Positions 6,633-44,455 of a stretch of DNA of 47,034 nucleotides are shown piece by piece (the stretch's first letter is position 1; the number at the start of each line of letters is the position of its first letter). The notes under the pieces were generated by a model. The model was given only the letters and a program-made list of their open reading frames with translations. It was not told the DNA's origin and made no database searches. The translations under genes and the position numbers were made by a program. Source of the stretch: a virus; IMG/VR virus record IMGVR_UViG_3300032053_000133, positions 1-47,034 of that record, one strand, 5' to 3'.

Positions 6633-6684
6633 GCACTACCTTGCGCTGGCATGGGGCGTACTGGCCGCGAAGGGGATGGCGTGA
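6622..6684 (+). CDS. Possible 20-aa peptide (GTG start)
   Basis: GTG at 6622 with GAGG upstream, encoding a short hydrophobic segment (YLALAWGVLAAKGMA) that fills the gap between two genes and overlaps both. The reading frame is short enough to be chance; it is listed because the packing of this operon leaves few gaps. Confidence 0.2.
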   Translation: MTARHYLALAWGVLAAKGMA

Positions 6685-7301
6685 AACTCATCCTCGGCGA
6701 CTGTCTCGAAGTTATGAAAACGCTTCCCGACAAGTCCGTTGATGCCGTGATAACGGACCCGCCGTATCCAAAAGAATTTGAATATCTATACGGGGAGATG
6801 GCAAAAGAGGCTAAGCGTGTTTTGAGAATCGGGGGGAGCCTGTTGACGCTATGCGGTCATTCGCAACTGCCGCGAGTATTGAATGATATTAGCGAACATC
6901 TGAAATACCGCTGGATTATTCGCTATAACCACAAATCCTATGCGCGACTTTCAATGGGGATTTTGGCAACGTGGAAGCCCGCCCTATGGTTTGTAAATGA
7001 AAAGTTGTCTCCGCGTTATTGTATCGCAGATATGATAGACGGCTCACCGCGTAGCAAAAATTCGGGGCACCCCTGGGAGCAAGGATTAGATTATTCAGAA
7101 TGGGGGATAAAAAATCTCACCCGCGAGGGTCAAACGGCCCTCGACCCCTTCATGGGTTCGGGCACAACGGGCGTCGCTTGTGTCCAAACGGGCCGCGACT
7201 TCATCGGCATAGAGATTGACCCCGGATACTTCGCCATAGCAGAGAGACGGATAAAAGACGCGCAGGCCCAAGGGAAACTAATCATGGAGGCTTTAGCATG
7301 A
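6681..7301 (+). CDS. Site-specific DNA methyltransferase (N4-cytosine/N6-adenine type)
   Basis: 206 residues from the GTG at 6681 (GGGGAT upstream), giving KLILGDCLEVMKTLP at the start. Catalytic motif IV is DPPY (residues 26-29) and the AdoMet motif is DPFMGSGTTG (155-164), so motif order is IV then I, the beta-class arrangement; FIGIEID and AIAERRI follow as usual. These enzymes methylate exocyclic amino groups in DNA; in phages they commonly protect against host restriction. No cognate endonuclease is visible, so it is an orphan enzyme. Target sequence unknown. Confidence 0.88.
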   Translation: MKLILGDCLEVMKTLPDKSVDAVITDPPYPKEFEYLYGEMAKEAKRVLRIGGSLLTLCGHSQLPRVLNDISEHLKYRWIIRYNHKSYARLSMGILATWKPALWFVNEKLSPRYCIADMIDGSPRSKNSGHPWEQGLDYSEWGIKNLTREGQTALDPFMGSGTTGVACVQTGRDFIGIEIDPGYFAIAERRIKDAQAQGKLIMEALA

Positions 7302-7375
7302 CAGGCAAATCATCAATCATCCTGGCCTTCGCGGTACTGGCCGCGCTCACGGTCGGGCCAAGGAGAGAAGTGTGA
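7298..7375 (+). CDS. Small membrane peptide (25 aa)
   Basis: ATG at 7298 with GGAGG upstream, overlapping the methyltransferase stop by 4 bases and the next GTG start by 4. One hydrophobic segment (SIILAFAVLAALTV) is followed by PRREV. Tight coupling on both sides supports translation; function unknown. Confidence 0.4.
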   Translation: MTGKSSIILAFAVLAALTVGPRREV

Positions 7376-7725
7376 ATAAAAAAAGGTCTTTCATCCAAAA
7401 GGCTTTAGTAAGCCTCGCGGGCTGGTCGGGCCGGCGCCAGAACAGAAACTTCAAATGGCTACGGGACAAGGCCATTGCGTTTGACCTTCTGATGGGAATG
7501 ACGGAAGAGAGCCTCGCCCGGATCTATAAGGTCTCGATCGACACGGTCAGGCGTGCTAAGCGAAGGGCTCCCAAGAGCAACTACATTCGCGTCCAGCAAT
7601 ATCTCACGCAGGCTACTTTGAAAGCAGAAAAATGGCGCCAGCCACAGCTAAGCCTGCCAGACCCAGCTTCCCTACCGTTGCCTGGAAGCGAAGCAGACCA
7701 TTCTCCTTCTGGAGAGCCTTTATAA
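7372..7725 (+). CDS. Small HTH protein (117 aa, GTG start)
   Basis: GTG at 7372 with AGGAG upstream, overlapping the previous stop. A very basic N-terminus (KKRSF, GRRQNRNFKWLR) precedes a helix-turn-helix-like stretch at about residues 40-65 (MTEESLARIYKVSIDTVRRAKRRA), resembling resolvase/transposase-type HTH. The C-terminal 40 residues are Pro/Ser-rich. It is the last gene of the left rightward block and runs head-on into the lysis cassette, overlapping the opposite-strand gene by 113 bases. A DNA-binding regulator is plausible. Confidence 0.6.
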   Translation: MNKKRSFIQKALVSLAGWSGRRQNRNFKWLRDKAIAFDLLMGMTEESLARIYKVSIDTVRRAKRRAPKSNYIRVQQYLTQATLKAEKWRQPQLSLPDPASLPLPGSEADHSPSGEPL

Positions 7726-8284: not shown

Positions 8285-8570
8285 TTGAGTTCTCCTGTCC
8301 GTTTTTTTTGTTTGCGAAGATCCCCGTGATGCCCTGAACGCCGCGGACGGCAAGAAGGGCGATCGCGATGTCGCGGATCGCCTTGATGGCCGCGATGATG
8401 ACTTCGGGCGTGAGTTCCTTCGCCGTCCTGGCTAGGATGATGAGGATCAAAATCGCGCCGGCGGCGAAGACGAAAGAGATAAGTTTTTGCGAAGTCATCT
8501 TGTAAAGGAGCCGGATCGAGCAATCCTTCGGGCCCCATTTTATTTTCGCGGCACCAGGTTTCTTACTCAC
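8247..8570 (-). CDS. Holin-like small membrane protein (107 aa, GTG start)
   Basis: The GTG at 8570 overlaps the endolysin stop and has GAAGGA upstream. After a basic N-terminus (SKKPGAAKIKW) there is a strong transmembrane helix (LISFVFAAGAILILIILA), then a second moderately hydrophobic stretch (VIIAAIKAIRDIAIALLAV), and a charged hydrophilic tail. Two segments plus a charged tail fit a class II holin that permeabilises the inner membrane. Position between endolysin and spanin-like genes supports this. Confidence 0.55.
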   Translation of the reverse strand: MSKKPGAAKIKWGPKDCSIRLLYKMTSQKLISFVFAAGAILILIILARTAKELTPEVIIAAIKAIRDIAIALLAVRGVQGITGIFANKKNGQENSNGDQPKVHSPLG

Positions 8571-9072
8571 AATTCTTTTCCTTCGTCCAGAGATTGATAT
8601 ATTCACGTTTCACCCGTAAAACGTAATCCCAGTTCCGCAAAAGACCTTCTGGGCCGGGATTTCCAGCGCTCCCCCCATTATACCGGGCCAAGACGACTTC
8701 GTTCGGCCAGCAGCGCCAGAAAGGCTTGGGCACAAGCTGTTCGCGGAGTTGGACCAGGAGCTTGCCGGCGAGCTCGACGTTATAGACCGGATTGTAGAGA
8801 TCCACCCCGGGGCCGCGGAAGCCAAGGTTCCAAGCTGTGCTGAACATGACCTGCATTAAGCCGTAAGACGCGCTCACTTCTTTCGGGTCGCGGTCCTTCA
8901 GGTCTGGAAATTTGGAGCCATACTTTTCCCAAAATTCTTTTTCGTACCTATAGGCCATCGGGTCCATGGATGATTCGACCATTGCGATCGCTTTCAGTAA
9001 AAGTTTTTCTACCTGGAATTTCTTCGACACCATGCAGAAGACCTTGTCCAGGTCGATCGACCCGTTACTCAT
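8563..9072 (-). CDS. Lytic transglycosylase endolysin (SLT-like)
   Basis: 169 residues; GGAGG lies 9 bases before the ATG. Goose-lysozyme/SLT motifs are clear: AIAMVESSMDP with catalytic Glu33, ASYGLMQVMFSTA around 68-80, NVELAGKLLVQLREQL, then VVLARYNGGS. These enzymes cleave the MurNAc-GlcNAc bond to form 1,6-anhydro ends. There is no signal peptide, so export would depend on the holin. It could instead be a virion-associated muralytic enzyme, but its place before holin-like and spanin-like genes favours host lysis. Confidence 0.82.
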   Translation of the reverse strand: MSNGSIDLDKVFCMVSKKFQVEKLLLKAIAMVESSMDPMAYRYEKEFWEKYGSKFPDLKDRDPKEVSASYGLMQVMFSTAWNLGFRGPGVDLYNPVYNVELAGKLLVQLREQLVPKPFWRCWPNEVVLARYNGGSAGNPGPEGLLRNWDYVLRVKREYINLWTKEKNCE

Positions 9073-9090: not shown

Positions 9091-12000
9091 TTATGGTGAC
9101 TTGTAACCTAGCCTCGTCTTTGCCTTTGCCGAGACCTGGTCCTTTATTTGCCTTGCTATATATTCCAACGTCTTTCTTTTATTTTCGTCATCCATACCGG
9201 CCCAGTTCGGCCTTGACATGGCCCTTCCAAAACCCGCCGAGATTTCGGACTTGGCTGTCGCCGAGAGTTTGTCGTATTCGCCTGGCGGGATCTTGTCTTT
9301 CCCGGCGGGTTTCGACAGGTAATCCATGGAAAGTCTGAGCCTATCGAGTTCCCGGCCAGTTGAATCCTTGGGATTATTCAGGCCGTAGGTTTGGATCCCG
9401 ACCCCCATTGCGCTTAGGGCGGTCATGCCCATTATTTTCAATACGCTCATAGGGACTAAATCGGGATTGTCCTTGGCGACATCCAGGAAGTCCTGCGTGA
9501 CCATGGGCACAAATCTCTTTGCTATCTCTGCATCTGCCTTAAATTCTTTCCCGCCGAACCCTTTTCCCCTCATCAGACCCAGGACGAAAGAAGGCCATGG
9601 CGCTAACTTGGATTCCGCCGCCCTTCCCACTATATCAAGACGATTCGTTGATCTGTATCCCTCGCCCAGGGTCGCAACTTTTCCCGTTGTTGAGCTTACC
9701 GTCTCGCCTGACCATAGCCGACCCACGAGCGTTGCCAACTGTTGAAGTCCTCCCCAAATATCTATTCTTGTATTCCCCAAAATTATCTTTCCAAAATCGG
9801 AGCTTCTTGGGTCAAGGCCAACTGATACTCCGGCTAATTTCGCCAATCCTAAAACGGTCAGCCCCTGTCCCGTGAAGGCCAGGAGGGTCGTGACGGCTTC
9901 TCGTCTTGCAAATGGATCGAGCTTTATATAATAAGCGGGGTTTATAAGGCTCAATCGGGCCGACCAGTTTCGGGGCGAAAAGAATACGGTATTTAGGGCG
10001 ACCGCCGCTCCCTCAAGTTTTCCGAGTCTTCCCCTAGCCGTATTAATATTCACGACCTTGGCTATGTCTTTTGCTAATTTTATATCGTCATATGGCTCAC
10101 GGCCCAGATCCTCCGCTCGTTTTACAAGATAATCAAAAGCGTCAGCCCTCAACCTATTGGCAAATCCGGTAAAGGCCCGATTCGATGCGTGAACTATTTT
10201 TCCGGGGATATAAACTTTATTTAGTGCGGCCGCGATTTTGCCTTTTCCCGGTATCTTTTCTGCTATTGAGGATTGGTACGGCTCTTCTCTGACCCGGACG
10301 TTCTCGCCGATGTCCGTTAAGGCAACCCCCGCCTTCTTCATCAAATCGAACGTCGGCCTTGAGGCTATTTCAGCCTGGGACGCTTGGAATGCTTTCTCAC
10401 TCGCAAGCCACTTAAATTGTTCGGGGAATGCTTTCCAGAATATTCCCGGATGCCTAGCCTCCATCAATATTCCTTGCCTTAATGAAAAGGAAACATCGCC
10501 AGCGGTCATATATGCCCTGGAAAGATTCAGCAAATCCAGCCCAACAGTCGTTATTCTCTTGAATAATGTCGGATCTTCCACCAGGGTCTTTGCGAATTCC
10601 GGGCCGAATACTTTTTCCAAAAGGATCGCCCTGCTTGGCGGGGGAATCTTCCCTTGCAATAAGTCCGAAAACGCCTCTCCGGCATTGATGGATTCAAACC
10701 CCTTAAGTTTCGGGCTGTCAATAATCATGTCGTGCAAATAGTCGAAGTCCCCCTGGGTTAATTTGCCCTTGAGCGGTTCCGTCCCGACTTCTGGATACTT
10801 CCCTTTCAATGCGCCTAACTGGGCATAAAACCCTTGCTCGCCGCCAACCCTTTTGCCGGCCGCAAGCGCCTCCCTTAATCTTCTGCCGGTTTCCTTTGAT
10901 CTCAATATCTGCTGTTCTCTTCTTTTGGGTCTGGCCTCTTTGATGGCGTCCATGACCTTTTGAACGACAGGATCGACAGACGGATCGACCCCGATCTCTA
11001 TGGGTGCGGTATCTGCTGGAGTGGCCCCGGCCGTTTCTTCCGGGACGGTTTCCGGGATTCCCGCCCTTTTAAGGGCTCGCTTTTCTTGAATGGCCTTAAT
11101 CGTTCTCCGCACTTCTCCGACAAAGTCATATCCGCCGTAGAATTGCCTTAAATCCTCGCCTTGGGGGGCATTCATGTTCTTTAGGTCCGTGAGCAATCTC
11201 TTCAATACAGGATCGTCCTTGAGCAATGTCCAATTCTCGCTGACAATTTGGCGGATTCGTTCCCCTGTCATGCCCCGCTCTCGGGCCATCTCTTCATTGG
11301 TCTTGTTTTCAAGAATGGATCCCTCAAGTATCTTGATGTCCCTTGCCTCGTTTGGCCCCTCTTCTACATTTAGGCGAATTCGCTTTTTGATCCCATCGAT
11401 CGTTGCCTGCCTCTCAAGATTAACCTCTGGCCCTTCGACCTTGCCTTGGAATTCGGCGGCCTCTAGCGGGATCGTTTCGTCGATCTGGATTTCTTTCTCG
11501 ACCATCGTCGGGCGCTTTTTGGTCCACGGCCGCTTATCCGTCCAATACGTCAAGGCGATCGTCTTCCTCAGGTAATTCTCCAGCGGAATACCAAGGGCAG
11601 GATCGTATTTGCGAAGGGCTCGTTCAGCGAGTTCGGGCCGGTTTTCCACCGGGACGTTGATTTTGTCAAGGGTCTTCACAAGCTCTTCGTTGAAGCTGGT
11701 CGGCAATGGCGCGGACGGGAGTGCTTCATCGATCGTCCCCTGGCTTGGCTCCGGCTCGACGATTTCCTTTTGGACCGGCTTCATCCCAAGAAATTCCTGC
11801 TTCTGATAGCGGGGGAGGGGGACGTATTCGGCCTTCCCTTCTCCCGGCGCTTTCTTCTCGACGAGTTGCGCCCAGGCTTGGCCGTCAGCTTGAGGGCCGA
11901 TCTTTATGTGCCATCCGTCATCGAAATATGGCTGCATCTTCGATCGAGCTTCATCGACATCGGCGAAATGCCTTACTTTGCGAACATCGAAGCCGGCTTG

Positions 12001-14985
12001 GGCATCGGTCTCCAACGGCACCTTCGTCTCAAAAAGCGTCGGCTGCTCCGTTCGATCCAGGACGGCCGCCTTTTTCGGCTGAACCTTCTCCGTTGCCGGA
12101 GCGAATTCCCCGCCGAAGAGAGGCTTCTGTTCCTTGACGGCCGAAGGAATTAGCTTTACCGCTCCCTTCTCCTCGAAGGCTTTGGCCTGTGCCTCTTCTT
12201 CTGCCTTGAGCTCGGCGGCGACCTTCGCCTCCGTGTCCGCCATGATCATCTCTTCCAATCCCGTCATCTCAGGGGTTATCCGCCTTGGTTGGGGTCTAGT
12301 TGGTTCGGCGGGAGCACCTGAGCCGGCCGGATCCCCGGGCGGGGCCGCTTTTGTCCGGTATCCCGGCTCCCTTCTTACTGCGGCCCTGGTCACAAAATCG
12401 ACAAACTTCTCCGCATTGTCCTTCTCCCAGGCATCGATCAGGGCCTTGGCCTTGATCCGCTCATCCAGGGAAAGATGGCGCGGGTCTTCCGTAAATTGTA
12501 TCATGAGGTAGTCTTGATATTGATCTTCGGTGTTCTCCCTCTCGCGCTGACCGGAGACCCTTTCCTGGTGAGCCATATCACGATCAACGTCGGCCCTAGT
12601 GATCGGATGCTTCCCTGTTCCATGGATCTCGTCCCTGGCCCATTCGATGAAGGTATTCAAGTCATCCATCGTGATGTCGGCGCCTTCTTGCTGTGCGAGT
12701 TCGGTCAATTGGCTGACCGTTCTACCTCTCTGGTTATTGACCAGCCCGGGGAATTTCCTGCCGAATTCCTTGATGTCCAGGAGCTCGCCGCCCATGCCGT
12801 GTTCGGTCTCCAGGGCAAGGTTGATCCCGCCCTGGTTGCGGATCCAATTTAAAAACGGATATTGGGGGGCCTTCCCGGTCGAGACCTTCTCGGCCGGCTT
12901 CCGGCCCTGCCAGATTCTAATTCGCTCAGGAAGGTCTTCTTTTGGGCCCAGCGGCCGAAACGACCCCTTGCCCGGATCGCTTTTCGATTCGAGCATAGCC
13001 CAGCCGCTCTTCCCAAAATCCTTGGAAAGATAGGTGACGTTCCAGCCTTCATCGATGACGGGCTTTATTTGGACCAAGAATTTGTTGATTTCCTTGATCG
13101 GGACAATGCCGCTCTTTGGAAACATGCCAGGGATCTTCTCCCCGGCCGGGAAGGCCCGGGGCGCCGGCAACTCCGCAGGCGCGGGGGGTCCGGCTGAAAG
13201 GGAAGGCGTATATTTGGCCGGTATTTCATCCTTCTCCGGCACCCGCCAGCCGCGAATCTTCTCGATCTGGTCTCTCTGTTCTGGGCCGTATTCCATGAAG
13301 CGAGCTATATCGAAGGCCCAGGGCGCCTTCCCAGCCTTGAGGGCAATGCTCTCCGGTGTCTCGCCCGTGATCGCGGCACCGGGCCTTTCGACTTCCCATG
13401 GATGTAATTCAACGACGGTAAAATTATCGGGCGGCGCGTCATAGCCTTTTACGATTATTGCGTCGTGGCCTTGGGACATCGCCCATTTGCTGAGGGCCCT
13501 GGCGCCTTCCATCCTCTGGCCGCCTTCTGTCGTTTTATATTTGGCTATCAAATTCAGCGCTTCTTCGCCATTTAGGACCAGGGGATTTTTGAATGTTTTT
13601 TGTTCCCTTTGGACAGGTGTCGCATATTGCTTCGCCGTAGGTTCATGGTCTGTCCAATATATCCCAGCGCCAAGGTCTCCGGCGTCCGTCCCATATCCTT
13701 CCGTTGTTTTTGGGCGAGCGCCGCGATAAAGATTCATTGTTATAGGCTTTCCGCTTTCCGACGCGGCGGCCGAAGCCGGATTATCGACCGCAAGCGGATG
13801 GAGTTCGTCCCATTGCGCCTGAGCCTTAACCATCCCCGCCGCTTTCTTTTCCGCCAATATTTCCGCTGGAGACTTCGGGAAAGCCATTTCAACTTCAGGT
13901 TTAGGTTGAAATTCGGTTGGTATTCCGCGAGCCTCGATCCCGATGTCAAATTGTGGCTGAAGCGGCGCTTCTTCTGGCATTCCAAAAAACTCTTTTCCTG
14001 TTATCTTGTTGATCTCTGATTGCGTGACCTTGTATATTTCCCTGTCCGGCAATTTCTCTATTTCCTGCCGTGCCACACTTGACATTTTGGGATTCGACCG
14101 TGCGATATTCTTGAGGTCACCGCCCGTAAAAGAAAGGGCCGCAAGCGTTGCCCCGCCGGACACCCTTTCCTCTATCCCGCCCGGAGTCGTAGCCGCACCC
14201 AGCCCGAACATGGCGGGGATTCTCTGAGACAAGCGAAGCCCGGATGTTAGCCCCAATCCGCCATGCATAATTTGCCCGGAAGTCGCGCCTTTCAAAGCGC
14301 CCGTCACCCCACCTTCCGCTCCACCCATAACTGCGCCATGGGCGGCAAGTTTGAACGGACCGGGAGTAGCCATTATCATCGGAATGTCGAACCCAGCAGA
14401 GCCTAGACCGGATATGACTTCTTTAAGAACGGGGACCTGAATTCCCTCTTGGGATAATTTGTTCCCGTAATAGTCCCAGTTGTCTTGAAGTTCCTTAAAA
14501 AGACCTCCCCTTAATTCGTCCTGAGGAATCCCGGTGACCTTAGAAAGTCCCTTGCCGATTAGGTTTGAATAGAAATCCAGAGCGCTCGCCGTCCTTGCCG
14601 CCGCCTTATAGAATCCTCCGCCTAAAGTCTTAATCTCGGCCCAGGCGTCTCTCGCAATTTGACCTATTAAGGAGTTCGGCGGATTTATCAGCGTCCTCGC
14701 AGTCTCCTCGTCTTTGGGAACCTGCTCGACCTTGAACCGCCCAATTTGCTTGAAGGGAAAGCCGGACGGGGATGTTTTAGGCGTTCCGTCAAGACGTAAA
14801 TCGGGCGGCGCAGTTATCGACTGACCCACAGGGCCGTCGAGAACAAACCCCGCTGGAGGCTTCGGCGTAGGGGAGTCCAGAACAAACCCCTTCGGCGGAG
14901 TTATTTCCTGCGCTACCGGGGTATCAAGGACAAACCCCGGCGGTAAGATTATCCTTTCCTGCCCAACCGTTTCGGCCCCATTCAT
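9091..14985 (-). CDS. Giant polyvalent protein: ART-like, sigma-70-like and LPD38-like parts (1964 aa)
   Basis: Start at 14985 overlaps the previous stop (ATGA). Parts in order: PPGFVLD-type repeats (12-67); Gly/Ala-rich hydrophobic region (190-290); ADP-ribosyltransferase-like stretch (415-535: NLYRGARP, GAGIYWTDHEPTAKQYA); a unit repeated at about 633-687 and 1004-1058; a linker of polyvalent type (709-770, FLNWIRNQGG); a long charged linker; a sigma-70-like part (about 1115-1265: ALRKYDPALG, then EEMARERGMTGERIRQI); and a C-terminal region (1480-1735, LSRAYMTAGDVSFSLRQG, then VFFSPRNWSARL) typical of the large polyvalent protein domain LPD38. Polyvalent proteins are known to be packaged and injected with DNA. 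Injection here is inferred from family and position among virion genes. Confidence 0.8.
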   Translation of the reverse strand: MNGAETVGQERIILPPGFVLDTPVAQEITPPKGFVLDSPTPKPPAGFVLDGPVGQSITAPPDLRLDGTPKTSPSGFPFKQIGRFKVEQVPKDEETARTLINPPNSLIGQIARDAWAEIKTLGGGFYKAAARTASALDFYSNLIGKGLSKVTGIPQDELRGGLFKELQDNWDYYGNKLSQEGIQVPVLKEVISGLGSAGFDIPMIMATPGPFKLAAHGAVMGGAEGGVTGALKGATSGQIMHGGLGLTSGLRLSQRIPAMFGLGAATTPGGIEERVSGGATLAALSFTGGDLKNIARSNPKMSSVARQEIEKLPDREIYKVTQSEINKITGKEFFGMPEEAPLQPQFDIGIEARGIPTEFQPKPEVEMAFPKSPAEILAEKKAAGMVKAQAQWDELHPLAVDNPASAAASESGKPITMNLYRGARPKTTEGYGTDAGDLGAGIYWTDHEPTAKQYATPVQREQKTFKNPLVLNGEEALNLIAKYKTTEGGQRMEGARALSKWAMSQGHDAIIVKGYDAPPDNFTVVELHPWEVERPGAAITGETPESIALKAGKAPWAFDIARFMEYGPEQRDQIEKIRGWRVPEKDEIPAKYTPSLSAGPPAPAELPAPRAFPAGEKIPGMFPKSGIVPIKEINKFLVQIKPVIDEGWNVTYLSKDFGKSGWAMLESKSDPGKGSFRPLGPKEDLPERIRIWQGRKPAEKVSTGKAPQYPFLNWIRNQGGINLALETEHGMGGELLDIKEFGRKFPGLVNNQRGRTVSQLTELAQQEGADITMDDLNTFIEWARDEIHGTGKHPITRADVDRDMAHQERVSGQRERENTEDQYQDYLMIQFTEDPRHLSLDERIKAKALIDAWEKDNAEKFVDFVTRAAVRREPGYRTKAAPPGDPAGSGAPAEPTRPQPRRITPEMTGLEEMIMADTEAKVAAELKAEEEAQAKAFEEKGAVKLIPSAVKEQKPLFGGEFAPATEKVQPKKAAVLDRTEQPTLFETKVPLETDAQAGFDVRKVRHFADVDEARSKMQPYFDDGWHIKIGPQADGQAWAQLVEKKAPGEGKAEYVPLPRYQKQEFLGMKPVQKEIVEPEPSQGTIDEALPSAPLPTSFNEELVKTLDKINVPVENRPELAERALRKYDPALGIPLENYLRKTIALTYWTDKRPWTKKRPTMVEKEIQIDETIPLEAAEFQGKVEGPEVNLERQATIDGIKKRIRLNVEEGPNEARDIKILEGSILENKTNEEMARERGMTGERIRQIVSENWTLLKDDPVLKRLLTDLKNMNAPQGEDLRQFYGGYDFVGEVRRTIKAIQEKRALKRAGIPETVPEETAGATPADTAPIEIGVDPSVDPVVQKVMDAIKEARPKRREQQILRSKETGRRLREALAAGKRVGGEQGFYAQLGALKGKYPEVGTEPLKGKLTQGDFDYLHDMIIDSPKLKGFESINAGEAFSDLLQGKIPPPSRAILLEKVFGPEFAKTLVEDPTLFKRITTVGLDLLNLSRAYMTAGDVSFSLRQGILMEARHPGIFWKAFPEQFKWLASEKAFQASQAEIASRPTFDLMKKAGVALTDIGENVRVREEPYQSSIAEKIPGKGKIAAALNKVYIPGKIVHASNRAFTGFANRLRADAFDYLVKRAEDLGREPYDDIKLAKDIAKVVNINTARGRLGKLEGAAVALNTVFFSPRNWSARLSLINPAYYIKLDPFARREAVTTLLAFTGQGLTVLGLAKLAGVSVGLDPRSSDFGKIILGNTRIDIWGGLQQLATLVGRLWSGETVSSTTGKVATLGEGYRSTNRLDIVGRAAESKLAPWPSFVLGLMRGKGFGGKEFKADAEIAKRFVPMVTQDFLDVAKDNPDLVPMSVLKIMGMTALSAMGVGIQTYGLNNPKDSTGRELDRLRLSMDYLSKPAGKDKIPPGEYDKLSATAKSEISAGFGRAMSRPNWAGMDDENKRKTLEYIARQIKDQVSAKAKTRLGYKSP

Positions 14986-16235
14986 TTAACGACCTGGCCC
15001 GTCCTTATGTCATACCAATTTATCCCATCGTCCGACCCGATGACTTGTCCCGTGCTTGCGTTCGTTGCCGTCTTTTTATAGGCCGGCCTCGCCAGCATCA
15101 TCGCCAGAATCGGATTGACCGAATTCGATTTCGGGACAGGCGTCGTGCCCAGCCAATTACCGTTGCCGAGAGGGGTCGGGAGATTCCCCGTCCCAACTGT
15201 TTGGACGGGGGCGGGTAGCGTCGGCGCTGTGGTTGCGCCTATTGTTTTAGCGGGGAGGCCCAATGCTGGGGTTCTAGGAAGAAACTCCTCGGAAGGGGGG
15301 TAATTGAGGGTCTTCGTTGCGTTAATTCTGTCAACATCCCTAGAGCTATTTATGAAAATCTTGTCATCAGCGGTCAACCCCTTCCCCTCTAATATTTTGT
15401 TCCTGATACGGCCCAAGAGATATATGGCCTGGCTAGCCAACCCTGAATCGTCGATCCCACCTACCTTAATATTTCCAGAATTTCCCGCCTGCCATTGGCC
15501 GGTGACGAAGGCTTGGGATTTGTCTATCTCTGAAATCCAGGTCTTTTCGATGTCGGTCAGTTTCCTTCCGATCGTTCCGCCCTCGGCTGCGAATGTCCTT
15601 TCGGCAAGGTCCTGCTTTGCCTGGCTTACTCCCAATTCTCCGGCTCGCAATCCCATCTCTGGCTTCTTGACCTCTTCGATGTCCTGTGTTTGCCTCATGC
15701 TTTGGAAGATCTGGTTGACAATTCCCCGGCTGGTTTCATCCGACAATTTCATGATGTCGGATATATCCTTGGTCGAGGCCGCGCCCTTGAGGGAATTCAT
15801 GATGCTCATGGCGTGTTTCTGCTGGATGTCCGTCATCTGGTCCTGGAGCGGCTTGAGGCTGGCGGGGTCTTCCCCGTCCAGGATCCTTTTGCTGATGATG
15901 GCCTGGAGACTTTGGATCTCCGGCAACTTCGAGACATCGATCTTCCAGGCCTCGCGGAGCCGCGTCATCATGTCCTCATGCTCGGCGGATTTCTCGCCGC
16001 GCGTCAGGGCCCCAGCCCCCACCCTCTCGATCATGGTGTTCTTTGATCGAAGGTTCTCGAGCCCGGTGTAGCCCTCCTGCGACCTTTCGAGATATTTCAT
16101 CCGGTTCTCGGATTCCTGTTCGTTCAAGGTGCGTTGATTCTGGAATTCCCGGCCCATGATTCCCGTTCTCATCAAGTAGTTCATGAGAAATTCGAGGTTC
16201 TTGTTGATCTGCGCGTTTCGATCGACGTATGCCAT
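14982..16235 (-). CDS. Putative internal virion protein (417 aa)
   Basis: The first 330 residues are polar and helical, with coiled-coil character (NEQESENRMKYLERSQEGY; LQAIISKRILDGEDPASLKPLQDQM). The C-terminal 90 residues are Pro/Thr/Asn-rich and contain a stretch (VGTGNLPTPLGNGNWLG and following) identical to one in the next protein upstream in the operon, due to a perfect 99-bp repeat. It ends with a small hydrophobic/aromatic motif (DDGINWYDIRTGQVV). No family recognised; position before the polyvalent gene suggests an ejection or internal protein. Confidence 0.6.
   Translation of the reverse strand: MAYVDRNAQINKNLEFLMNYLMRTGIMGREFQNQRTLNEQESENRMKYLERSQEGYTGLENLRSKNTMIERVGAGALTRGEKSAEHEDMMTRLREAWKIDVSKLPEIQSLQAIISKRILDGEDPASLKPLQDQMTDIQQKHAMSIMNSLKGAASTKDISDIMKLSDETSRGIVNQIFQSMRQTQDIEEVKKPEMGLRAGELGVSQAKQDLAERTFAAEGGTIGRKLTDIEKTWISEIDKSQAFVTGQWQAGNSGNIKVGGIDDSGLASQAIYLLGRIRNKILEGKGLTADDKIFINSSRDVDRINATKTLNYPPSEEFLPRTPALGLPAKTIGATTAPTLPAPVQTVGTGNLPTPLGNGNWLGTTPVPKSNSVNPILAMMLARPAYKKTATNASTGQVIGSDDGINWYDIRTGQVVK
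15099..15197. repeat. 99-bp perfect direct repeat, copy A
   Basis: Identical base for base to 16359-16457. The offset is 1260 bp, a multiple of three, and both copies are read in the same frame in two different minus-strand genes, so both proteins share about 33 identical residues. Perfect identity in otherwise unrelated genes indicates recent copying or selection for recombination. Confidence 0.95.
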
Positions 16236-38297: not shown

Positions 38298-38827
38298 TTG
38301 GCACCCTCCAACCGTTTTGGCTTTAAAGCCTCAAGCATCTTTCTGTTTTCTTCCAATTCCTTCATCATTTCCCTCTCGCCGACCATCCTGGCGGCTGCGA
38401 TCTTATAGGCTTCGATGAACCTGGCCCTGTCCCTGGCCTCGTATGTCGTTTCCGTCTCCCCAAAGGCTTTCCAGCCTCCAAAGGCGATCCTAACGGCCTC
38501 TGCCGCGACGAGGTCTTTCGGCTTTCCCCCGCCCTGAACCGTATCAAGGTCCTTACACGCCCTGGGCCAAGCCTCAAGGGCCTCAACCTCAACGTCTTCC
38601 TCGAGAAGATCGAAGGCGGCCTGCCGGATCTCGGCGATCGTCGGCATGGACTGATAACGCCTAGAGAGGATGATCTTGTCCACGGCTCTTTTAAGTTGTC
38701 CTTCCGTAAGGTCTTGTAAATAATGAAAATAAACTTCTACTTTCCCTTTGGACAACCCTCCTTTTTCGAAAGCCGTCCCGAGAACGGCGATAAACCTGGC
38801 AAATTTCTCCTCTTTGTCAGACGACAT
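38294..38827 (-). CDS. Helicase-loader-like replication protein (177 aa)
   Basis: GGAGGGAG precedes the ATG. The N-terminal 75 residues (FARFIAVLGTAFEKGGLSKGKVEVYFHYLQDLTEGQLKRAVDKIILSRRYQSMPTIAEIRQAA-type; key part MPTIAEIRQAA) resemble the replicative helicase inhibitor/loader family (G39P-like) of phages and plasmids, which shows a (F/M)PT(I/V)xEIR ending. The C-terminal half is helical and basic. It lies directly after the replication initiator, as expected for a loader that recruits the host DnaB-type helicase. Confidence 0.65.
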   Translation of the reverse strand: MSSDKEEKFARFIAVLGTAFEKGGLSKGKVEVYFHYLQDLTEGQLKRAVDKIILSRRYQSMPTIAEIRQAAFDLLEEDVEVEALEAWPRACKDLDTVQGGGKPKDLVAAEAVRIAFGGWKAFGETETTYEARDRARFIEAYKIAAARMVGEREMMKELEENRKMLEALKPKRLEGAK

Positions 38828-39983
38828 CTTCTCCCTCCCTTTCTTTCAACCATTGCCTTACACCGTCCGTAGCGTCCGGTTTTTGGGCTTTTAACCAAAG
38901 TTGGTCCCATTTTTCCCTAAGTTTCGACATGGACAGGATGTTGACCTTCCAAAATTGATCTGACTGCGAGAATCTTATGATTAGCTCTATGTCCCGCTCT
39001 GTCTTCCCGTCGGACTCACGGAGTAGCCTGCATTCGTCGATCCACCTCTTCTGCCGATCAGGGGTGAGTTTTTTTATGATTGTGGATTCCGGGTTGTTCT
39101 TCTGCATCAGGTCGATTAATAGCTGGGTTAGTCTTATGTCTACGTCTTTGAAAGAAGATTTAATACTAAGAGAAGAATCCCCTCTTAAATCTTCATTATC
39201 ATGTTTTGCCATCGACGTTTTCATTTCTGATGCTAAGGGTTTGCCAGAAGGATTTGCTATGTCGTTGCTAAGATCTTGCCTTGATGCTTTCTCTATTCCT
39301 TTTGCAGAATTACAGGGCTGGCACAATGGTTGTATGTTGTTTATAAGATCACTACCACCAAGGAATATAGGTTTGATGTGGTCTTTTGTTAATGTAATAT
39401 TTGGCTCTGTTTTGCCACAAATTACGCACGAGTAGTTTTTCAGTTTTTTGAGATTTTGCCATTGTTCTTCGGTGTGCTTCCCCTTTCGCCTGGATGTTTG
39501 CAGTCTTTCTTGCCGGACCGCAGAATGCGATTTCATGGCAAAAATACCAAGTTCTTCGTTTGTCTTTTTAAGTCTTTCCCGGCCCTCAACCTCTTTCTTG
39601 TCCAAGTCCCACCGTTTTATCGCTCCGAGCCTTCCGGCTTCGGCCCTCTTTTCGCTCAGATCGGTTTCTCCGAGCATCCGGCGATTGTAGATCGTACCAT
39701 CTGGAAGGCGGGAAAAGACCCGATGTTTCTCTAGCTCTACCAATAGGGCGACGACTTCAATCGAATCTGCCCCAATCAGCCTGGCAAGCTCATCGCTTGG
39801 GATCTGGCAATTATTGATCGTCAAGGTCCCCCTGTGGCTTGATCGAGACATTATCCCAAGCATATTGATCCAAAGGCCCTGGGCGGCCAGGCTACATGCG
39901 TGAACGTCGAAAGAAGAAAACCAATCATTCCAGAACCATAGATCTGCCGGCCGCTGTTCTTCTTTAAGGCTATACTTGCCCAT
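38817..39983 (-). CDS. Replication initiator (O-like) with embedded HNH domain (388 aa)
   Basis: Residues 1-115 have the winged-helix of phage replisome organisers (DLWFWNDWFSSFDVHACSLAAQGLWINML; NNCQIPSDELARLIGA; FSRLPDGTIYNRRM). Residues about 165-232 are an HNH endonuclease: CVIC (186-189), KDHIKPIFLGGSD (200-212), CQPCNSAKG (221-229). The C-terminal part (about 275-370) is again like initiator C-terminal regions (RWIDECRLLRESD; FWKVNILSMSKLREKW). The HNH stretch (about 39288-39491) and the linkers around it are visibly more AT-rich than the flanks, suggesting later insertion. It would open the origin and recruit the loader encoded next. Confidence 0.7.
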   Translation of the reverse strand: MGKYSLKEEQRPADLWFWNDWFSSFDVHACSLAAQGLWINMLGIMSRSSHRGTLTINNCQIPSDELARLIGADSIEVVALLVELEKHRVFSRLPDGTIYNRRMLGETDLSEKRAEAGRLGAIKRWDLDKKEVEGRERLKKTNEELGIFAMKSHSAVRQERLQTSRRKGKHTEEQWQNLKKLKNYSCVICGKTEPNITLTKDHIKPIFLGGSDLINNIQPLCQPCNSAKGIEKASRQDLSNDIANPSGKPLASEMKTSMAKHDNEDLRGDSSLSIKSSFKDVDIRLTQLLIDLMQKNNPESTIIKKLTPDRQKRWIDECRLLRESDGKTERDIELIIRFSQSDQFWKVNILSMSKLREKWDQLWLKAQKPDATDGVRQWLKEREGEDVV

Positions 39984-43552: not shown

Positions 43553-44455
43553 TTAGGGGATCAACCTGATAATTTCGTATGCGACTTGGGCGACGATGGC
43601 ATTTCCAAGTGCTTTAAGTCTGTCCACCCGTCGGGATACCCCATCATCCACTCGACAAAGGCGGGCTGCAACTTCAGGCCAGGGCGTGTCCCAACTGTCG
43701 TCTGTAAGTCCTTCCCGCCCTGACCGCGTTCGCTGGCTCCGGTACAATTCTGTTTTTTCGGCGTCGGGAGCATGGCGATCTGCGTTGGTAGATGTGTTGA
43801 CTTTTCCCTTGCCCGATCGCTTGTGCTGGGGGTGGCGAATTCCGCGTCTCCCGCCTTCGGGGTCATCAGTATCCTTCCGCCTTCCCAATATCCAGACCCT
43901 ATCCCTTCTGTGCGGGGCGTTGACGGCGCAAGCTGGAATAATAACCGGCTTGACTTCATAGTCTTCGCCTTCCAAGTCAGCACACACTTCGTCGAGTTCC
44001 ATATTGACGATTCCAGCAACATTCTCACCAATGACCCAAGTGGGCTTTGCTTCGTGAATAACTCTGAGCATTTCCGGCCAGAGGTGACGGTCATCTGCCT
44101 TGCCCTTTCGCTTCCCGGCGACAGAGAACGGCTGGCAGGGGAATCCCCCGGTAAGCAGAGTTGCTCCTCGAAATCGGGCGCCGTCGAGGGCGCGGATGTC
44201 GGGGATGAGGATTGGATAATCCCCCGCAAAAGCAATTCGTTCTTCCGCTTCCCGCCACGGCTGATATGTCCGCCCATCGCTTCTGCCACACTCGGCGTCG
44301 GCAACAGCCCCGAGCCTTGCCTTGAGGACTTCCTGGCAGAAGGGGTCGATCTCGCAGAAACAGACGGTGCGGAATCCGGCCCATCCTGCGGCAATAGCGA
44401 AGCCGCCGATGCCAGAGAAAAGGTCGATGTGCGTTTTCTCATGCAAGTTCTCCAT
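43553..44455 (-). CDS. C5-cytosine DNA methyltransferase (300 aa)
   Basis: Ten-motif C5 family signature: HIDLFSGIGGFAIAAGWAG (motif I, 9-27), catalytic GGFPCQPFSVAG with Cys107, GENVAGIV (motif VI, 143-150), APHRRDRVWILG (motif VIII) and LKALGNAIVAQVAYEI (motif X) at the end. It methylates cytosine C5, probably to evade host restriction; the target is unknown. The variable region between motifs VIII and IX (about 195-260) is charged. The start follows a TGCAATAGTGGGGC element, with no normal ribosome binding site. A 316-aa reading frame on the same strand over this gene is a shadow. Confidence 0.9.
   Translation of the reverse strand: MENLHEKTHIDLFSGIGGFAIAAGWAGFRTVCFCEIDPFCQEVLKARLGAVADAECGRSDGRTYQPWREAEERIAFAGDYPILIPDIRALDGARFRGATLLTGGFPCQPFSVAGKRKGKADDRHLWPEMLRVIHEAKPTWVIGENVAGIVNMELDEVCADLEGEDYEVKPVIIPACAVNAPHRRDRVWILGRRKDTDDPEGGRRGIRHPQHKRSGKGKVNTSTNADRHAPDAEKTELYRSQRTRSGREGLTDDSWDTPWPEVAARLCRVDDGVSRRVDRLKALGNAIVAQVAYEIIRLIP

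Follow-up and report, generated by a model that had tools for sequence, protein, structure and literature searches.

The window analysed here, the whole 47,034-nucleotide stretch of the viral record IMGVR_UViG_3300032053_000133, carries a giant gene within a minus-strand block of structural-type genes. The features that matter for this analysis, with the evidence by which each was placed, are the following.

14982..16235, minus strand: gene for a 417-aa protein, immediately upstream of the giant gene, its end overlapping the start of the giant gene by four bases
9091..14985, minus strand: giant polyvalent-type protein, 1964 aa, an intact open reading frame
13408..13755, minus strand: ART-PolyVal-like domain, residues 411-526 (blastp to the relative L118; Pfam PF18760 in relatives)
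11701..11775, minus strand: Pro/Ala/Glu-rich linker, residues 1071-1095, N-terminal to the sigma-like segment (composition scan)
11479..11715, minus strand: proposed sigma region 2 with the motif ALRKYDPALG, residues 1091-1169, unsupported (no sigma match; controls)
11170..11430, minus strand: sigma4-like helix-turn-helix (HTH) domain, residues 1186-1272, five predicted helices (NCBIfam, hhalign, AF2, Foldseek)
11245..11298, minus strand: HTH core NEEMARERGMTGERIRQI, residues 1230-1247 (profile matches, alignment)
10981..11055, minus strand: Pro/Ala/Glu-rich linker, residues 1311-1335, C-terminal to the segment (composition scan)
9367..11064, minus strand: conserved C-terminal domain of about 566 aa, residues 1308-1873, unnamed (viral alignments)
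8563..9072, minus strand: lytic transglycosylase (SLT) gene, immediately downstream of the giant gene (Pfam SLT, E 7.8e-13)

The minus-strand block around the giant gene encodes TerL, the portal and the major capsid protein, together with a tail fibre with NHL repeats and an S74 chaperone, a protein that matches the internal virion protein family phrog_511 (E 1.2e-16), and weak baseplate/tail matches. A position of this sort, in a structural block and beside a lytic transglycosylase, is typical for ejected internal proteins. The giant protein ends in a conserved C-terminal domain, and its gene has a lysozyme gene as neighbour within a set of structural-type genes; packaging and ejection with the genome are therefore probable, and the gene position is compatible with both. 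The same phage record also holds two DNA methyltransferase genes (6651-7301, plus strand; 43553-44455, minus strand) and a replication protein (38817-39983, minus strand) with an apparent HNH endonuclease domain between an N-terminal replisome-organizer-like and a C-terminal DnaD-like part.

Within its 1964 residues the protein combines unlike domains: an ART-like part, an HTH and the conserved C-terminal domain. The ART-like part that the first-pass annotation had described is real, as its relatives reveal. Residues 411-526 align with the giant proteins of L118 (blastp E 1e-6), L125 and L123, and the corresponding pieces of all three lie above the Pfam cut-off for ART-PolyVal (PF18760), an ADP-ribosyltransferase known from polyvalent proteins; the piece in the window scores 17.0 bits (E 0.011), under that cut-off. 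The C-terminal domain was found at 59 viral loci with a first alignment and in 336 tblastn-confirmed viral stretches with a better one, the best 80 of which were kept. A first scan of genome contigs gave no match to it, and a second scan placed it in one contig titled Elusimicrobia. Its earlier description as an LPD38-like end did not hold up: Pfam LPD38 has no match at E<=10 in the window, control genomes likewise giving none, and none at E<=0.1 among 21 C-terminal domains, so that by Pfam the domain differs from the LPD38 catalogued in polyvalent proteins.

Upstream of this common domain, the N-terminal parts of 41 relatives carry differing domains with one to three members each (SLT, His_Phos_1, KptA-type), and a sigma family is absent from the 25 families listed for them. 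The unnamed domain looks like a frequent carrier of variable N-terminal cargo. The unlike domains, the ART-PolyVal relatives and the variable N-termini before a common C-terminal domain together support the initial description of a giant polyvalent-type protein in a structural-type gene block. By eye, two features stand ahead of the common C-terminal domain in one relative giant protein (L006:8003-12721, plus strand, 1573 aa): a ParB-like stretch and a zincin-like HELGHH motif.

The sigma-70-like segment itself had been located at 11191-11643 on the minus strand, and these coordinates proved exact: they correspond to residues 1115-1265, and all three motifs quoted for the segment are in place. 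On residues 1171-1274, seven of eight NCBIfam matches are sigma factors, with RpoS best (E 0.006), followed by TIGR02937 (E 0.022) and RpoH (E 0.033), whereas Pfam puts KORA first on the segment (E 0.008; 16.7 bits against a cut-off of 26.7) and gives Sigma70_r4 an E-value of 0.02 (13.6 to 14.8 bits against a cut-off of 24.1). The TIGR02937 score, 17.6 to 18.3 bits, compares with a curated cut-off of 42.9. In a six-frame search of the window this profile has a single match, at the segment (E 5.7e-5, 17.6 bits), an E-value that overstates the case because open frames of related phage contigs give HTH-only matches of 1e-6 to 1e-3 that are under the family cut-off. With the segment as query, six-frame translations of 341 genomes gave three matches at E<=0.01, about the chance expectation, two of which are sigma-70 factors aligned in register at region 4. 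A 117-aa open reading frame of the window (7372-7725, plus strand) contains an HTH that outscores that of the giant protein with a local sigma region 4 profile (12.2 versus 8.8 bits), and its Pfam matches are weak and mixed (GntR, HTH_23, Sigma70_r4).

Profile alignment by hhalign against eight sigma factors, with L171 left out, brought regions 4.1 and 4.2 into register with a score of 29.6, which was reached by none of 300 free shuffles and by 16 of 300 shuffles in which the HTH was fixed. In the pairwise control, the 18-19-residue HTH core was held fixed and the remainder shuffled; similarity was at chance level for 12 of the 14 sigma factors, the exceptions being L167 (z 2.6) and L171 (z 6.0). 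By these sequence comparisons, the sigma4 similarity beyond the HTH is marginal. L171, a stand-alone sigma-70-like protein in a phage contig (5443-6246, plus strand), is the best of 600 motif-preselected candidates, and its match to the segment (34% over 74 aa) was rejected as proof of sigma homology, given this preselection and the lack of similarity beyond the HTH in most other sigma factors. Home-made ECF profiles were uninformative.

At the residues of the sigma70 recognition helix that contact the -35 element, which include R584, E585, R586, R588 and Q589, the segment has G, E, R, R and Q. The Gly at the R584 equivalent distinguishes the giant-protein HTH from sigma70, and it also occurs in some phage sigma-like proteins. 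A minimal 175-aa stand-alone sigma-70-like protein in a bacterial genome (L174) has GERIRQI with Gly, as in the segment. Exact matching of G[LIVMF]TGER[IV]RQ across viral contigs gave 25 stretches, six of which encode proteins like E. coli sigma factors (L175, L184, L190, L193, L194 and L197); others are HTH-like frames without sigma similarity, such as L176, L180, L185 and L196. The presence of TGER[IV]RQ in these non-sigma phage frames makes the motif alone undiagnostic for sigma.

The AF2 single-sequence model of residues 1186-1272 has five helices (pLDDT 70.6, pTM 0.52). With this model, Foldseek ranks sigmaA region 4 first and ArdK, FixJ and KorA close behind, with high probabilities yet E-values of 0.1 or worse, none reaching E 0.001. 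A first AF2 model, of 200 aa (pLDDT 52), was left out of the fold search. The best reading of the segment is a discrete HTH domain at about residues 1186-1272, with a predicted sigma4-like fold, in the variable part of a polyvalent protein. Thus, of the region 4.2-like HTH described initially, the HTH is real and its matches are dominated by sigma factors, but they stay under the curated cut-offs and do not separate it from KorA.

These data bear directly on an alternative in which the domain is a KorA/ArdK-type or general HTH of non-sigma descent, delivered with the genome as a DNA anchor or repressor, its sigma4.2 likeness reflecting a common HTH fold and a widespread recognition-helix motif. 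The first place of KORA in Pfam, the presence of KorA and ArdK among the top PDB matches by both sequence and fold, the non-sigma frames with TGER[IV]RQ and the rare HTH domains already known in polyvalent proteins (PMC5512222) all speak for it. However, sigma factors make up most of the NCBIfam matches and two of the three genome matches, and the helix preceding the HTH aligns with region 4.1. We consider this alternative a nearly equal contender to the sigma4 reading, at less than even odds.

Among the relatives searched, the sigma-like segment is limited to a near-identical twin contig, IMGVR_UViG_3300031885_000028, which has an intact 1943-aa counterpart of the giant protein. When 59 giant proteins were scanned by motif and by phmmer, the segment turned up in the twin only. 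In a six-frame search of 100 relative records, TIGR02937 gave matches above the cut-off in frames of 164-202 aa, and the twin provided the only match in a giant frame. Neither tblastn of the segment in phages nor tblastn of the whole giant protein in phages and plasmids recovered a relative of the segment. Together with the conserved C-terminal domain and the differing N-termini, this restriction to the twin identifies the sigma-like piece as one variable cargo.

The 200-aa segment differs from the twin by one nonsynonymous and no synonymous change, and since there is no synonymous change, the comparison is uninformative on selection there. Residues 1650-1850 (9436-10038, minus strand), in contrast to the rest of the gene, which is nearly identical, show 0.61 synonymous and 0.20 nonsynonymous differences per site; this divergence suggests a recombination event inside the conserved C-terminal domain. 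A smaller divergent patch lies at residues 531-640. The narrow distribution and the lack of a synonymous change by which to gauge selection would suit a decayed or neutral insert, a former DNA-binding or sigma piece that is now a passenger in an insert-tolerant protein, but the reading frame is intact in two contigs and the HTH is well formed with flanking helices, and we judge this explanation unlikely.

Profile searches against the sigma-70 families divided the segment: NCBIfam and hhalign aligned region 4, and the piece proposed as region 2 gave no match. For residues 1091-1169, NCBIfam contained no sigma family match and hhalign gave a probability of 0.3% against sigma region 2; with a local region 2 model, the score was equalled by 81 of 20000 shuffles and by 77 of about 11,400 open reading frames. 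The segment is also gapped across the region 2.2 helix in the alignment with sigma factors. The assignment of ALRKYDPALG to sigma region 2 was therefore not borne out, and a full sigma module was dropped, region 2 failing when tested alone. A complete divergent sigma module, with regions 2 and 4 joined by a linker and injected so as to send host RNAP to early promoters, accordingly seems highly improbable, even though the TIGR02937 match covers profile positions 41-155 at about 4 bits above region 4 alone (18.3 versus 14.4 bits) and helices are predicted, at low confidence, in the right part, because the region 2 piece matches no sigma and scores at chance level in controls, and because of the gap at the region 2.2 helix.

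The explanation we favour, with a probability of roughly 0.4, is that a variable polyvalent protein, probably packaged in the virion and ejected together with the genome, carries a sigma4-like domain as DNA-binding cargo. From the computed features, namely the HTH, its ART-type neighbour, the architecture and the gene order, we infer a possible course of packaging, ejection, DNA binding and RNAP contact. The giant protein would enter the bacterium with the viral DNA; the HTH would then most likely bind double-stranded DNA, with a -35-like element or the incoming phage DNA as possible targets, and, in the manner of sigma4, it may contact the RNAP beta flap as well. Early in infection, this would bring to the phage DNA either host RNAP or the ART domain of the protein itself. 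Because region 2 is undetectable, the domain is not expected to melt promoters on its own, and its role would be that of a sigma4 mimic or a DNA tether. A more specific version, in which the virion delivers a sigma4 mimic that is joined to an ADP-ribosyltransferase in one protein and captures or redirects host RNAP at phage early promoters ahead of all phage gene expression, strikes us as rather improbable.

This sigma4-like cargo domain can be set against several known systems. Like the sigma-70 region 4 of RpoS, RpoD and minimal phage sigma factors, it is an HTH with an ERIRQI recognition helix, and the profiles and the fold align; unlike sigma-70 factors, the giant protein has no detectable region 2 and carries its HTH fused inside a much larger chain. 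The KorA/ArdK plasmid regulators share an HTH of the same fold, with similar sequence and Foldseek E-values, but they are stand-alone plasmid repressors, whereas the HTH described here is part of a giant phage protein. Phages known to deliver transcription machinery to the cell do so in the form of whole RNA polymerases, as N4 does with its vRNAP; T4 gp33 is a late transcription factor and is not known to be injected. The N4 virion RNA polymerase provides a precedent for transcription machinery delivered with phage DNA (PMC12633501), and T4 gp33, an HTH protein, provides one for sigma-like recruitment of RNAP via the beta subunit (PMC7824862). With the polyvalent proteins of phages and conjugative elements (Iyer et al. 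2017, PMC5512222), the giant protein has in common its large size, multiple and variable domains, an ART-PolyVal-type domain in the family and likely co-delivery with DNA. Rare HTH domains are on record for those proteins, and the word "sigma" is absent from the text of that study. Polyvalent proteins with rare HTH domains (PMC5512222) and injected N4-type RNAP (PMC12633501) are thus already known, and in the open-access papers searched we found no report of a virion-delivered sigma factor or sigma4-like cargo.

With this domain, the polyvalent repertoire gains an HTH/sigma4-like cargo, and an unnamed family of large C-terminal domains, whose viral relatives number in the hundreds, is marked as a carrier of variable cargo. 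If the protein is indeed an injected sigma4-only mimic, it would steer host RNAP from time zero at far lower cost, and what polyvalent cargo does in early transcription could then be tested directly.
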